DNA of 30,661 bases from a virus. The notes under the pieces were generated by a model that saw only the letters and a list, made by a program, of their open reading frames with translations, did no database searches and had not been told where the DNA came from. Made by a program: the position numbers and the translations under genes. Positions 16,255 to 30,661 of this stretch are shown here, piece after piece. Location of the stretch: IMG/VR virus record IMGVR_UViG_3300020187_000134, positions 1 through 30,661 of that record. One strand, written 5' to 3'. Positions within the stretch are counted from its first letter, which is position 1. Each line of letters begins with the position of its first letter.

Positions 16255-16260
16255 GGTATT

Positions 16261-16289
16261 ATTATATAGTATCTTTTAAAGTTTGTCAA
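16261..16289 (-). promoter_or_regulatory. Perfect sigma70 promoter for the leftward structural operon
   Basis: On the minus strand TTGACA (16289-16284), a 17-nt spacer and TATAAT (16266-16261) are exact. The expected start is at or within a base or two of the A of the ATG at 16254. It is divergent from the promoter at 16348-16376, with 58 bp between the two -35 boxes. Confidence 0.85.
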
Positions 16290-16347
16290 GTTTTTTTACA
16301 AAACTTTCAAGTCTTTTCACATATTTTAAAGTATTTGCATAAAGTAC

Positions 16348-16376
16348 TTGACAAAATTGAAAAGTAAGTGTATAAT
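16348..16376 (+). promoter_or_regulatory. Perfect sigma70 promoter for the rightward early region
   Basis: TTGACA at 16348-16353, a 17-nt spacer and TATAAT at 16371-16376. It drives transcription into the origin-like region. The first gene begins at 17171, so the untranslated leader would be about 790 nt. The transcript could also act as a primer or regulatory RNA for the origin. Confidence 0.85.
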
Positions 16377-16626
16377 AAAGTTGAAAACGTCCCCAGGTTT
16401 AAATACATATATCCTGATAGGATAATACCTATATAGCCCCACCCAAACCTAACAAATATTTATCAATCATTCTTTATAATCCCCATAACTTATTATATAA
16501 TACTATAGCTTTATTCGTGTTGTAAAGTATATAAAAGGTTATGGCGTTTGTGAAGTTTTAAAGCTTTATAAAGCCCAACTGGTTAATACCACTATTGGCT
16601 AGAAATGTATAAGATTTATATATATA

Positions 16627-16658
16627 CCACCCCACCCCCCCTGTACATCCTGCCCCCC
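16627..16658 (-). other. G-rich tract on the minus strand (possible G-quadruplex)
   Basis: In AT-rich surroundings the minus strand carries runs of 6 G (16658-16653), 7 G (16641-16635) and 4 G (16633-16630) with smaller runs between. Splitting the 7-G run gives four runs of at least three G. It ends 12 bp before the first DnaA-like box. Confidence 0.45.
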
Positions 16659-16670
16659 TACTTTAAAAAC

Positions 16671-16745
16671 TTATCAACAGGATATCAACAGCTTATCCAC
16701 TTTTAAAGTGTGTCATGTATAACCTGTGGATAACTCTGTGGATAA
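16671..16745. other. DnaA-box cluster (putative replication origin)
   Basis: Five 9-mers lie within 75 bp. Three are forward at exactly 11-bp steps: TTATCAACA (16671), ATATCAACA (16682) and TTATCCACT (16693). Two are reverse-strand perfect TTATCCACA boxes (16725-16733 and 16737-16745) at a 12-bp step. TTATCCACA is the strong bacterial DnaA box. Regular spacing on about one helical turn and the AT-rich surroundings fit an initiator array. No Rep-type initiator gene is visible in the window, so host DnaA is the natural candidate. Confidence 0.65.
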
Positions 16746-16768
16746 CTTTTAAAGACTTTACAAGCTTG

Positions 16769-16803
16769 AAAAGTGTCATACCACCCCTTTAAAAGTGTCA
16801 TAC
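16769..16803 (+). repeat. Short direct repeat AAAAGTGTCATAC
   Basis: Two identical 13-mers at 16769-16781 and 16791-16803, 22 bp apart, between the DnaA boxes and the iterons. Related fragments occur nearby (TTAAAGTGTGTCATG near 16705 and AAAAGTGTATA near 16840). Confidence 0.6.
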
Positions 16804-16842
16804 TTTACAAGCTTTACAAGTCTAGTTTATGCCCCGTGAAAA

Positions 16843-16985
16843 GTGTATAAAATTTATACAATTTATAATCTGTACAATTTTTATACAACTTCACAAGCTG
16901 TACAATTTTTATACAACTTTATAAGCTGTACAATTTTTATACAATTATTTAGTCTCATCTTTACAAGCTGTACAATTTTTATACA
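16843..16985 (+). repeat. Iteron array CTGTACAATTTTTATACA
   Basis: Four exact copies of an 18-mer start at 16870, 16898, 16926 and 16968 (steps 28, 28 and 42 bp), each followed or preceded by ACAAGC-like sequence. A degenerate copy lies at 16843-16860. Each copy contains an imperfect dyad, GTACAA-ttt-TTATAC, so it can bind a dimer. Direct repeats of this size beside DnaA boxes are the usual layout of iteron origins in plasmids and some phages; they could equally be operators. Confidence 0.75.
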
Positions 16986-17089
16986 GCACCTCTCTTGAAA
17001 CCCTTACTGCTACAGCGTTTATAAAGTTGTTGCATTCTCTTTTCATATAGTATCTTATATAGGAATGAAAACAAAACAGCACAAGAACA

Positions 17090-17145
17090 ATGTCAAGGAC
17101 ACTTTACACCTGTATATCCATACAGTATGTCAAGTAGACTTTACA
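17090..17145 (+). repeat. Direct repeat flanking the LexA-like dyad
   Basis: Two 19-mers, ATGTCAAG-N3-ACTTTACA, at 17090-17108 and 17127-17145 (16 of 19 positions shared, 37 bp apart) bracket the CTGT-N8-ACAG dyad. The block lies just upstream of the first early gene. Confidence 0.65.
17110..17125 (+). promoter_or_regulatory. LexA-type dyad CTGTATATCCATACAG
   Basis: The site matches CTGT-N8-ACAG, the SOS-box core of gammaproteobacteria and related groups. With flanks it agrees with the 20-bp E. coli consensus at 16 positions by my count. It lies 45 bp upstream of the ATG at 17171, a repressor-like position. A phage repressor with similar specificity is an alternative. Confidence 0.5.
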
Positions 17146-17170
17146 GTGCATAACAAAAGGAAATATTAAA

Positions 17171-17506: not shown

Positions 17507-17544
17507 ACCACTTATCAAGCTCCTCTTTTGGGGCTTTAGGTGGT
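17507..17544 (+). repeat. Intercistronic two-tier hairpin, copy 1
   Basis: Outer stem ACCAC/GTGGT (17507-17511 with 17540-17544) and inner stem AAGCTCC/GGGGCTT (17517-17523 with 17530-17536). There is no U-run after it, so it is not a classical terminator. The sequence from here to the next ATG, including AAAGGAGTAAATAAA, is shared with copy 2. Confidence 0.8.
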
Positions 17545-17577
17545 ATAAAAACAACATTTACAAAGGAGTAAATAAAT

Positions 17578-17862: not shown

Positions 17863-17900
17863 ACCACTTAATAAGCCCCTCTTTTGGGGCTTTAGGTGGT
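17863..17900 (+). repeat. Intercistronic two-tier hairpin, copy 2
   Basis: Outer ACCAC/GTGGT (17863-17867 with 17896-17900) and inner AAGCCCC/GGGGCTT (17873-17879 with 17886-17892). Relative to copy 1 the inner C-G pair replaces a U-G pair, so pairing is kept. It is followed by TTTACAAAGGAGTAAATAAA and the next ATG. Confidence 0.8.
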
Positions 17901-17932
17901 ATAAGAAACACATTTACAAAGGAGTAAATAAA

Positions 17933-18229: not shown

Positions 18230-18234
18230 CCCTA

Positions 18235-18273
18235 ACCACGTTAAACGCCTCCTTAATTGGGGGCTTTCGTGGT
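18235..18273 (+). repeat. Intercistronic two-tier hairpin, copy 3 (diverged)
   Basis: Outer ACCACG/CGTGGT (18235-18240 with 18268-18273) and inner GCCTCC/GGGGGC (18247-18252 with 18259-18264). The outer stem has an extra G-C pair where copies 1 and 2 differ on both sides, and loops have changed, but the two-tier shape is kept. The downstream ribosome binding region differs from copies 1 and 2. Confidence 0.75.
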
Positions 18274-18311
18274 ATAAAAATAACTAAACAAAGCGTGAGG
18301 GCTTTAAAATT

Positions 18312-21876: not shown

Positions 21877-22056
21877 GTGAGAGAAGACTGTAAGCTAACA
21901 CCTATGAACAAAGAAGAGTTTAGAATGTGGGAAGATTATATTATAAGTTATAATCATAGTAATCCTACAGACCAGATAGCTTACGAGGTCACATGGAAGG
22001 ACGATAATTATAAAGTAAAATTATTAAATTTAAAGGTTGACAGAGGGGTAGAGTAG
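21877..22056 (+). CDS. Small phage protein with GTG start, 59 aa
   Basis: A GTG at 21877 with GAGGA 6 nt upstream opens a 59-codon frame ending TAG at 22054-22056. The protein (REDCKLTPMNKEEFRMWEDY, then SYNHSNPTDQIAYEVTWKDD) has helix followed by beta segments and ends VDRGVE. A later ATG in the same frame exists but has no ribosome binding site. Its last ~20 nt hold the -35 and spacer of the promoter for the structured RNA. Confidence 0.6.
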   Translation: MREDCKLTPMNKEEFRMWEDYIISYNHSNPTDQIAYEVTWKDDNYKVKLLNLKVDRGVE

Positions 22057-22065
22057 TAGTATCAT
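22037..22065 (+). promoter_or_regulatory. sigma70 promoter for the structured leader/ncRNA
   Basis: TTGACA at 22037-22042, exactly 17 nt, then TATCAT at 22060-22065 (one mismatch). The expected start near 22072 coincides with the beginning of the helix-rich segment. The -10 lies in a dyad, AGTATC-ata-GATACT (22058-22072), a plausible operator. Confidence 0.7.
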
Positions 22066-22071
22066 AGATAC

Positions 22072-22390
22072 TTATTTCAGGTATGTCCAAAGGTGTAGCC
22101 CTCAACTAACCTTCCTGAACCTAAAGACATACGATTATATCGTGCTAGTTACTGGTCTAGTGCCAAGAAAACCAGACTGATTTTAAAGTTTTACAAGGTG
22201 TTCGAGCTACTGTAAAATCCTTTCTTGAAAAGGTTGTAGCTGAAATGGGATAAGAACTAAACCGATTACCTTCCCTTGTAAATTAAATCCTAGATTAAAT
22301 TCGGGGTAGTCAGTCGTTCGGTGACTCTAAAAGATAATGTTCGAGTGCTGGGTATCACTTTAAAGTACCTACTTTTAACTGGAGGGTTAT
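22072..22390 (+). ncRNA. Candidate structured leader or non-coding RNA
   Basis: About 320 nt with no convincing gene, between a promoter and the ATG at 22391. Potential helices: TTCAGG/CCTGAA (22076/22114) crossing GTATGTC/GACATAC (22081/22126), a pseudoknot or a switch; AAGGT/ACCTT (22090/22109); ACGAT/ATCGT (22131/22139); CTGGT/ACCAG (22152/22171); AGCTAC/GTAGCT (22205/22236) capped by CCTTT/AAAGG (22219/22229); GATTACC/GGTAGTC (22264/22305) competing with AGTCA/TGACT (22308/22322). It lies ahead of the replication module and ends at a strong ribosome binding site (GGAGGG). It may be a cis-acting leader, a free RNA or both. I could match it to no known class. Confidence 0.6.
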
Positions 22391-22648
22391 ATGAATCTAT
22401 ATTTTAAATCAACAACACTAGAAAAAGAGATAGGTTGGACATGGAAAGACATGGACAAAGCCTACTGGGATACGTGGATACCTAAGAAGTCTGATATCAA
22501 AATCATTACAAGACTTAACAAAGAACAAAAGAAACAAGCACTTGATGAGTTATGGGAAGACTTGCAAGGGGCTATACAATTTACACGTGATAGAAACAGT
22601 GCAAGAAGAAGACAGAAAAGACTTGCACAAAAAGAAAAAGCATGTTAG
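22391..22648 (+). CDS. Small basic phage protein, 85 aa
   Basis: The protein (MNLYFKSTTLEKEIGWTWKD, then LNKEQKKQALDELWEDLQGA) has a Trp-rich N-terminus and a helical, strongly basic C-terminus (NSARRRQKRLAQKEK). GGAGGG precedes the ATG. It is the first gene after the structured leader and precedes the DNA-binding protein. Nucleic-acid binding is plausible from the charge. I do not recognise the family. Confidence 0.7.
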   Translation: MNLYFKSTTLEKEIGWTWKDMDKAYWDTWIPKKSDIKIITRLNKEQKKQALDELWEDLQGAIQFTRDRNSARRRQKRLAQKEKAC

Positions 22649-22695: not shown

Positions 22696-23109
22696 ATGTA
22701 TGAGTATGTAGAAGGAAAAGCTATGTGGGCTAATGTCAGCACACCAAACACTAAGTTTGAACCACATAAGTACGGAATCGTGGTGTTGACTGATGAAGAT
22801 ACTGCTACCAGATTAGAGGATGCAGGGTTATCAAGAGTAAGAACCAGAGATGGTCAAGCTAAGTATGATGAACCTGCTTTCTCATTCAGTAGAAAAGTAG
22901 AACGACATGATGGGACTACCAATCCTGCACCTAAGTTAGTTGACGCTGATGGTAACGACTTAGATGTTAGTCTTGGTAATGGCTCTGAAGTTACTGTGAA
23001 GATTAAACCTTACACAGGAAAGTATGGTACATTTGCAGAGTTAATAGCTGTGAAGGTTACTAATTTAATTGAATACACTGAACCAAGTTCAGACAACGAG
23101 GAATTTTAA
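22696..23109 (+). CDS. Single-stranded DNA-binding protein (gp2.5-like)
   Basis: A 137-residue OB-fold type protein that would coat single-stranded DNA during replication. Supporting features are the beta-rich body, the segment NGSEVTVKIKPYTGKYGTFA followed by ELIAVKVTNLIEY, which resembles T7 gp2.5-like phage proteins, and an acidic tail ending SSDNEEF. An acidic tail with a final Phe is the hallmark by which gp2.5 contacts polymerase and helicase. CGGAGG lies 8 nt before the ATG. The gene leads the replication block, next to primase-helicase and polymerase. Confidence 0.8.
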   Translation: MYEYVEGKAMWANVSTPNTKFEPHKYGIVVLTDEDTATRLEDAGLSRVRTRDGQAKYDEPAFSFSRKVERHDGTTNPAPKLVDADGNDLDVSLGNGSEVTVKIKPYTGKYGTFAELIAVKVTNLIEYTEPSSDNEEF

Positions 23110-29232: not shown

Positions 29233-29501
29233 ATTATAAATTTAACGAAGATAAAATATTAAACGAATTAAAAGCTTACGTAGGTAATACGTATGACCAA
29301 CACTATGCTAATGGTAAGTACCAAGCAACAGATATGATAATTGATTCCGGATATGGAGAAGGATTCTGTCTTGGAAACATTATGAAATATGCTATGAGGT
29401 TTGGTAAAAAGGACGGTAAAAATAATTTAGACCTATATAAAATAATACACTATGCTATAATAGCAATCTACGTAAACAATAAGGAACAAGATAATGGTTG
29501 A
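29229..29501 (+). CDS. DUF3310-like protein (nucleotide kinase-like)
   Basis: A 90-residue protein whose centre (QHYANGKYQATDMIIDSGYG, then GNIMKYAMRFGKKDGKNNLD followed by LYKIIHYA) matches DUF3310, found in many phages and in the C-terminal part of T7 gp1.7, a nucleotide kinase. The GNxxKYxxRxxxKxGxxDLxK pattern is complete. It sits between a nuclease and the ribonucleotide reductase, consistent with nucleotide metabolism. The start overlaps the HNH stop (ATGA). Kinase activity for a stand-alone DUF3310 is unproven. Confidence 0.85.
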   Translation: MNYKFNEDKILNELKAYVGNTYDQHYANGKYQATDMIIDSGYGEGFCLGNIMKYAMRFGKKDGKNNLDLYKIIHYAIIAIYVNNKEQDNG

Positions 29502-30661
29502 AGATAAGATAGGTACTAAACAATACTTAGGTATAGAAATAGATTATGACAGAGAAAAAACATTTGATAAGTTTAGTCTTGATACTTTAAAAGATAGATA
29601 CTTATGGGATAACGAAACCCATGCACAGGAAGCTTTTGCAAGAGCATCAGTATTCGGTGCAACCTTTAAAGGAGAAACAGATTTTGAATTGGCTCAAAGA
29701 CTTTATAACTACAGTTCCCAAAGGTGGTTCATGTTTAGCACTCCTATACTTAGTAACGGAGGAACAACTCGTGGGCTTCCTATCAGTTGTTTTCTTAATT
29801 ATGTTCCTGATAGCAGGGGTGGTTTATCAGCTCATTATGATGAGAACATATGGTTGGCAAGTTCGGGTGGCGGTATCGGTGGCTATTGGGGAGACATTAG
29901 AAGTAACGGTATATCTACTACTCATGGCTCTCGTTCTACTGGCTCAATTCCTTTCATGCATGTAGTTGATTCTCAGATGTTAGCCTTTAATCAAGGTACA
30001 ACTAGACGTGGTTCTTATGCGGCTTACATGGACATCAGTCATCCAGAGATTGAAGAGTTTATTAACATGCGTAAAGAATCAGGTGGAGATATAAACAGAA
30101 AGAATCTTAACATACATAACGGTGTAAACATTACAGATGCTTTCCTTGAAGCAGTAGAGAAAGATGATGACTGGAGATTGATTGACCCTAAGAGTAACGA
30201 AGCTGTTAAGGTAGTAAATGCTAGAGACTTATGGTGGCAAATCATTCATGCTAGAGCAGAGACAGGTGAACCTTACATGGTCAACATAGATACTTGTAAT
30301 AAATATTTACCTAAAGCACAAAAAGATTTAGGACTTAAGATACGACAAAGTAATTTATGTTCAGAGATTACCCTACCAACAGACGAAGAAAGAACAGCAG
30401 TATGTTGTTTGTCTTCTGTAAACTTGGAACACTTTGATACTTGGTCAAAGGATGATAACTTCATACAAGATTTAATAACCATGCTTGACAATGTTTTACA
30501 GCACTACATTGACAATGCAATAGACACAACACAGTTAGGAGAATACAGTGCAAACTTTAAAAGATTTCAAAAATACGTTAGAGAAGGTAAAGAAGGATTT
30601 ACTAAATCTGCCTATTCGGCATATAGAGAAAGAAGTCTCGGACTCGGTGCAATGGGCTTCC
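29494..30661 (+). CDS. Ribonucleotide reductase alpha subunit, 3' end missing
   Basis: The ATG at 29494 (AAGGA 8 nt upstream) opens a frame of 389 codons still open at the window edge. The enzyme turns ribonucleotides into deoxyribonucleotides for phage replication. Key residues: C99 (ISCF) and C304 (AVCCLS) as the redox pair, N287, C289 and E291 (SNLCSEITLP) as the radical site, plus FSTPILSNGG and TTHGSRSTGS. NLCxE is typical of class I (NrdA/NrdE) rather than class II. No N-terminal ATP-cone is visible, so activity regulation may be lost. A beta subunit would be expected beyond the window. Confidence 0.9.
   Translation, partial: MVEDKIGTKQYLGIEIDYDREKTFDKFSLDTLKDRYLWDNETHAQEAFARASVFGATFKGETDFELAQRLYNYSSQRWFMFSTPILSNGGTTRGLPISCFLNYVPDSRGGLSAHYDENIWLASSGGGIGGYWGDIRSNGISTTHGSRSTGSIPFMHVVDSQMLAFNQGTTRRGSYAAYMDISHPEIEEFINMRKESGGDINRKNLNIHNGVNITDAFLEAVEKDDDWRLIDPKSNEAVKVVNARDLWWQIIHARAETGEPYMVNIDTCNKYLPKAQKDLGLKIRQSNLCSEITLPTDEERTAVCCLSSVNLEHFDTWSKDDNFIQDLITMLDNVLQHYIDNAIDTTQLGEYSANFKRFQKYVREGKEGFTKSAYSAYRERSLGLGAMGF

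Follow-up and report, generated by a model that had tools for sequence, protein, structure and literature searches.

Positions 22037–22390 of the virus record IMGVR_UViG_3300020187_000134, of which the whole stretch of 30,661 nucleotides was analysed (the window), very probably (about 0.95) encode a plus-strand RNA composed of independent folded cassettes that are swapped, acquired and lost among closely related marine phages; this estimate covers both the anatomy and the exchange. The array is a row of separable units, C0, M1, M2, M3, M4 and M5, and not one leader. It is non-coding, belongs to no known Rfam family, is not tied to the gene located directly downstream and does not represent one leader of the riboswitch type; probably it is not a DNA element either. 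Comparative evidence upholds the first-pass annotation of a structured RNA with its own promoter and without a known family. Its further proposal, a regulatory leader with competing helices, is not upheld: the supposed rivals lie in separate cassettes, the ribosome-binding site is outside the supported helices, and the downstream gene varies.

The window represents a 30.7-kb virus record. Genes of the portal, capsid, terminase and adaptor are located on the minus strand of its left part, two of these structural genes being of the SU10 type. The right part, on the plus strand, contains early and replication genes, namely those of a gp2.5-type single-stranded DNA-binding protein (SSB), primase-helicase, DNA polymerase and Cas4-type exonuclease. 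The gap at 22057–22390 is bordered by an ORF of 59 aa on one side and an ORF of 85 aa on the other (ORF85, 22391–22648, plus strand), followed by the SSB gene (22696–23109, plus strand). ORF85 has a basic C-terminus, does not regularly accompany the array, and gave no match in Pfam or PHROGs; together with its homologues it forms a small protein family with a conserved W-x-W...YWDTWIPKKSDIKI motif and a very basic C-terminus, which could be RNA-binding. The closest primase relatives in GenBank, those of Pelagibacter phages HTVC103P, HTVC104P and HTVC115P, reach only about 47%, which leaves the host of the window phage unproven.

Several other features were noted in the window. An ORF at 29499–30661, running past the window end, resembles by eye the large subunit of ribonucleotide reductase, the gene of which is annotated in a comparable place in HTVC115P. 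The region 16260–17170, about 900 nt of non-coding sequence between diverging gene blocks, contains DnaA-box-like sites TTATCCAC/TGTGGATAA and AAGCTGTACAATTTTTATACAA repeats and by its appearance looks like a replication origin. Three related hairpins of the CCAC..AAGCCCCTCTTTTGGGGCTTTAGGTGG type are located between early genes at 17507–17545, 17863–17903 and 18232–18275; their stem changes (GCTCC, GCCCC and GCCTCC versus GGGGC/GGGGGC) look compensatory, and the hairpins appear, from sequence inspection, to be a second, simpler intergenic RNA element.

Relatives of the array were collected as 80 loci from IMG/VR primase relatives, to which an exact search with the C0 core added the rest, giving at least about 100 viral contigs, most of them partial; a relaxed 15-base C0 pattern yielded one more real copy only (L180). 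Unit counts come from pattern searches and hold among the matches listed. A sigma-70-type promoter is located at 22037–22065 (plus strand), with the −35 box TTGACA at 22037–22042, a spacer of 17 nt and the −10 box TATCAT at 22060–22065. It matches 11 of 12 consensus positions, which bears out the near-consensus promoter predicted earlier, and the start is expected near 22072. The combination TTGACA-17-TATAAT/TATCAT/TACAAT was found in 66 of the 80 relatives with full upstream sequence, scoring 11–12 of 12 with a spacer of always 17 nt, and in all 66 promoter-bearing relatives the C0 core begins 25–28 nt past the −10 box. Across loci, array length ranges from 118 to 482 nt, with the modulo-3 classes evenly filled (30/26/25); therefore the interval 22037–22390 is non-coding, as had been supposed, and no conserved reading frame was found in it, an outcome that speaks for a real RNA. 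The ribosome-binding site GGAGGG, read from the sequence at 22381–22386 (plus strand), lies outside every supported helix, and no terminator was found at the array.

All cassettes are encoded on the plus strand. C0 (22076–22132), with the core GGTGTAGCCCTCAACTAACCTTCC, is always the first unit and occurs in at least about 100 contigs. Its helix P1, GTATGTC 22081–22087/GACATAC 22126–22132, is crossed by the helix TTCAGG 22076–22081/CCTGAA 22114–22119, which overlaps P1 by one base. Both helices had been recognised in the first-pass annotation and do exist; the picture of two alternative states offered with them proved wrong. P1 is swapped wholesale in relatives for AGTATGC/GCATACT, CATGGT/ACCATG, TCATAAG/CTTATGA or ACTATAGG/CCTATAGT, while TAGCCCTCA stays unchanged. 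All six pairs of the crossing helix are present in 38 of the 84 scorable copies, including the compensated form TTAAGG/CCTTAA, and the remainder are partially paired. Cassette M1 (22132–22178) consists of a hairpin CGAT/ATCG followed by an H-type pseudoknot, in which CTAG 22145–22148/CTAG 22157–22160 is combined with CTGGT 22152–22156/ACCAG 22171–22175. Its variants stay paired both in the inner stem (CTAG/CTAG, CGAG/CTCG, CAAG/CTTG) and in the knot (CTGGT/ACCAG, CTAGT/ACTAG).

M2 (22190–22282) is a large cassette with helices P1a (TTTACAA 22190–22196/TTGTAAA 22276–22282), P1b (GGTGTTCG 22197–22204/CGATTACC 22263–22270), P2 (AGCTAC 22205–22210/GTAGCT 22236–22241), an exchangeable hairpin P3 (CCTTT 22219–22223/AAAGG 22229–22233) and a pseudoknot GGGA 22247–22250/TCCC 22272–22275. 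The stem AGCTAC/GTAGCT capped by a 5-bp stem, proposed from the sequence, is real, its changes in relatives being compensated (CTAC/GTAG, TTAC/GTAA, CCAC/GTGG, CCTT/AAGG). The pseudoknot pairs of the large units differ by subfamily (GGGA/TCCC, GCAG/CTGC, TGGA/TCCA, GGTG/CACC, CACG/CGTG, GAAGG/CCTTC); with the register set by hand, each strand pairs with its own partner in 6 of 6 cases and with a swapped partner in 0 of 30. The pseudoknot strand is located directly 5' of the core AT(A/G)AG. M3 (22283–22306) contains the core CCTAGATTAAATTCGGGG at 22289–22306. M4 (22308–22343) is closed by the stem AGTCA 22308–22312/TGACT 22322–22326, compensated as AGACA/TGTCT, and has a possible pseudoknot CGTT 22315–22318/AATG 22336–22339, the pairs of which are invariant across relatives. 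A competition of GATTACC/GGTAGTC with AGTCA/TGACT had been suggested; in relatives, GATTACC pairs with GGTGTTCG in M2, and AGTCA/TGACT closes M4, so these are two independent units without rivalry. M5 (22344–22373) is an H-type pseudoknot of AGTG 22344–22347/CACT 22356–22359 and GGGTA 22350–22354/TACCT 22366–22370. Overall, the majority of the cassettes are H-type or double pseudoknots; short U/A-rich linkers connect the cassettes, and the array ends ahead of the ribosome site. The unit boundaries are hand-drawn, and in the order matching some stretches could not be assigned to any unit of the library, which is incomplete.

The compensatory changes in relatives that the first-pass annotation had called for were found as strong covariation. 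In M5 (21 variants, 27 nt) both helices are paired in 100% of cells, and 4 of the 9 pairs changed on both sides. A sliding partner gave 30–58% pairing, and in 0 of 500 column shuffles was the pairing, the compensated-cell count or the covariation score matched. The alignment contains 15 G.U cells and no A.C cells, which indicates that selection acts on the plus-strand RNA. Five variants labelled M17, unrelated sequence from a loose match and the source of most A.C cells in the separate table that contained them, were left out, as was the M7/M21 MAFFT alignment, the second helix of which was out of register, from the counts. When folding energy, also proposed as a check, was computed for the 319 nt, 65 of 100 dinucleotide-shuffled sequences did equally well (z +0.35), so that the natural sequence had no advantage; the program is blind to pseudoknots, for which an ordinary folding energy is expected, and so the test is uninformative here.

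Exchange of the cassettes is evident from their orders. Comparison with the unit library revealed 55 distinct orders in 85 distinct leaders, each beginning with C0 and, by a simple count, comprising 2–7 units. The usual order is C0; M1, M10 or M5; usually one of the large units M2, M6 and M11; M3 or M12; M4, M7, M13 or M17; usually M5, M8, M9 or M14; and the ribosome site. M5 is the last unit in most arrays and the second in L013, L039, L040 and L048. Nesting was also detected: the P3 hairpin within M2 and M11 is exchangeable, and M3 sits in P3 of M6 and M11. Unit order differs in 25 of 31 pairs with SSB at least 99% identical and in 62 of 63 pairs with SSB 97–99% identical. The loci L137 and L114 contain different cassettes, though their SSB is 99.8% identical and their flanks are 100% identical, namely 290 nt upstream of C0, 260 nt upstream of SSB (most of the ORF) and 600 nt of the primase region. 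The pairs L134/L130, L050/L052 and L050/L053 are similar, with different units between nearly identical flanks, and the difference between L009 and L006 is limited to the nested hairpin. Mosaics of metagenome assembly could inflate the cassette diversity; against this, several orders were found repeatedly in samples independent of each other: the commonest, C0-M1-M2(h1)-M4-M5, in six of them, further ones in two or three.

Cassettes also occur outside this leader. The M5 pattern also retrieved units from gaps in which both C0 and its promoter are absent. Units are located between an early gene ending in ...SVSLFQR and the next early gene in L241 and L243–L246, after a different promoter ahead of MNKREREYN in L226 and L235, and at two sites on one contig each in L107 and L113. 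In L243 and L245, the primase is 61% and 65% and the SSB 34% and 36% identical to those of the window, but the identity of M5 reaches 100% in both and that of M12 98% in L243. ORF85 is missing from 21 of 24 cassette-bearing loci chosen for the check, some of which share a contig. The reading of the array as an ORF85-specific leader was dropped, since cassettes were found without ORF85. A further unit, M16 (L107:3520–3580, L242:9190–9250, L040, L222), has strongly compensated stems AATGAGG/CCTCATT and GTAAGG/CCTTAC, an inner stem GCTC/GAGC or GTCC/GGAC and a knot GGAT/ATCC; in two of these loci, L107 and L242, the primase gene follows it directly.

The 18-nt core of M3 is present in more than 107 viral contigs on dozens of different stems, for example GTGTGACTAC/GTAGTCACAC, GAGAGACTGT/GCAGTCTCTC and CCTGTTTTC/GAAAACAGG; the M3 of the window, between M2 and M4, is without such a capped stem. 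In 41 distinct settings, the mean helix formed by the flanks was 7.2 versus 4.5 for swapped flanks, with at least 5 bp in 83% versus 41%. Most instances were retrieved by the exact core, which makes the core invariant there by construction; a search of 2.87 Mb of collected sequence with two mismatches allowed revealed one variant only (2 loci). M3 precedes more than 40 kinds of genes, primase and SSB included (named by N-termini, partly by eye), and a same-strand gene is located downstream at 109 of 118 sites. A second array type, found at L278, L284, L287, L301, L304, L305, L312, L318, L339 and L348, comprises a C0-like unit (GGTAGCCCTCAANAAAACCTTCCTAACC, stem CATGGT/ACCATG), a small hairpin and M3; it shares the opening motif and has a different downstream gene, mostly MKKQKQQI....

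Searches for known families gave negative results. The 4227 Rfam families, including riboswitches, ribozymes and ToxI, produced no matches in the window and none up to E 10 in 21900–22500, in agreement with the earlier statement that no riboswitch or phage RNA could be matched; in 19 related loci, the scores obtained were chance ones to snoRNA/sRNA models and all fell outside the arrays. Searches by blastn, with several arrays as queries against phages in GenBank (E up to 1–10), returned short chance matches or none, and a scan of GTDB genomes with the C0 core returned four chance matches with dissimilar flanks; accordingly, no cultured phage or bacterial genome in these collections matched the cassettes. 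In HTVC104P and HTVC115P (47% primase), no recognisable cassettes were found upstream of SSB. The cultured Pelagibacter phage HTVC115P (MN698247; L211:5142–5544) has a 400-nt non-coding gap ahead of SSB, with a GATACTGTAATCCTGC-like sequence of faint likeness to the large-unit core, and may offer a cultured system for further study. Within Rfam 15, the sequence collections searched and a limited literature search, no described counterpart of this hypervariable RNA locus was found.

As to function, each cassette may be a compact factor-binding RNA, its partner probably being a protein or an RNA machine of the host; the array would then provide exchangeable RNA inhibitors or decoys that are produced at an early stage of infection. 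This candidate trans role against host RNA-acting or defence factors is put forward tentatively, slightly ahead of protection of the mRNA in cis. It is favoured by the fast turnover at a fixed spot, the identical units in diverged phages, the lack of dependence on the downstream gene, unpaired cores that are near-invariant beyond what the fold needs, selection at the RNA level and the precedent of phage RNA mimics (PMC5449768, PMC10651486). Against it, neither a target nor an Rfam match, type III antitoxin RNA included, was found; the location of the cassettes in intergenic gaps and mRNA leaders would also be compatible with a role in cis, and part of the sequence invariance may reflect recent spread only.

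In principle, the mode would resemble that of pseudo-ToxI or RNA anti-CRISPRs, except that one array combines numerous distinct units. Phage pseudo-ToxI versions change by expansion and block a host toxin (PMC5449768). ToxI and pseudo-ToxI of type III toxin-antitoxin systems likewise consist of compact RNA pseudoknots arranged in tandem behind one promoter, and the H-type pseudoknot units of such systems are found among the cassettes; however, in known ToxI a single unit is repeated in tandem next to a toxin gene, whereas the cassettes within one array differ and no toxin gene was seen. The ToxN model gave no match in the window record and none in control genomes either. Racr RNA anti-CRISPRs are phage-encoded non-coding RNA mimics inhibiting a defence system (PMC10651486); they mimic CRISPR repeats, whereas the window cassettes are pseudoknots. 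Large ornate RNAs such as GOLLD and ROOL are structured bacterial non-coding RNAs, some of them phage-linked (PMC12286853), and are single RNAs of one conserved architecture, unlike the combinatorial cassettes.

A role in cis as mRNA punctuation is a serious, if still tentative, competitor. Here, pseudoknots would block ribonucleases or mark processing points and protect the mRNA of the next gene; any stable unit would serve, hence the interchangeability. The cassettes are in sense orientation, follow a promoter or a stop codon and are themselves followed by the next ribosome site; they precede many unrelated genes, and compact H-type pseudoknots whose crossing loops are rich in A are typical of stable RNA, all of which is consistent with it. 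Exoribonuclease-resistant RNAs are compact pseudoknot folds stopping a nuclease (PMC5760640); these flaviviral elements stop Xrn1, and the likeness lies in compact pseudoknots by description only. However, a purely mechanical role needs neither a near-invariant 18-nt core on varying stems nor fast turnover between near-identical flanks.

A post-transcriptional regulon, in which the cassettes bind a phage or host RNA-binding protein controlling early mRNAs, for example the nearby SSB acting autogenously, is improbable. The SSB gene just downstream and the regulon-like presence of M3 ahead of many genes agree with it, as does T4 gene 32, which is controlled by its own Ssb bound to a pseudoknot of the mRNA (PMC535899, PMC3014915); that leader likewise has a 5' pseudoknot ahead of replication genes with SSB nearby (PMC535899). 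But the T4 leader is one pseudoknot, and here exchangeable sets also precede unrelated genes; so many different folds would not be needed for one protein. The SSB gene usually follows ORF85, as in the window, where its leader is not the array, and a weak promoter-like site of its own accompanies it; the array is located ahead of SSB in L063 and L078, but a promoter-like sequence separates the two. Still less likely are small-molecule riboswitches or self-cleaving ribozymes, with the large cassettes M2, M6 and M11 as aptamers or catalysts. The double-pseudoknot fold and the conserved core letters TGTAAAA and GATRAGNACTAAACC would suit them, but there was no Rfam match at permissive thresholds and no common downstream pathway; an expression platform was not found, with no terminator and GGAGGG outside the supported helices, and M3, with its more than 40 downstream gene kinds, is not linked to one metabolic gene set. 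A DNA-level element, either a replication origin or mobile palindromes, is largely refuted and highly improbable: the array precedes replication genes and its elements move between sites, but the 15 G.U and 0 A.C cells of M5 indicate selection on plus-strand RNA, orientation is always sense, and 16260–17170, with its DnaA-box-like sites, is more origin-like, for which reasons the origin idea was dropped.

The analysis yields several undescribed pseudoknot families and the near-invariant 18-nt M3 RNA core. The cassettes are small enough for synthesis, probing, crystallisation and use as bait, so that direct tests are possible. To our knowledge, the known hypervariable phage loci are protein loci, namely tail fibres and anti-defence genes. 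A locus recombining dozens of folded RNAs as units between near-identical genomes would represent a new route of phage diversification. It is conceivable, if rather doubtful, that the cassettes form a hypervariable RNA arsenal, a shared and traded library in which each unit is aimed at a different host factor; if so, the combination of cassettes would determine host range or the ability to withstand defence, in the way that exchange of tail-fibre and anti-defence genes does at the protein level.
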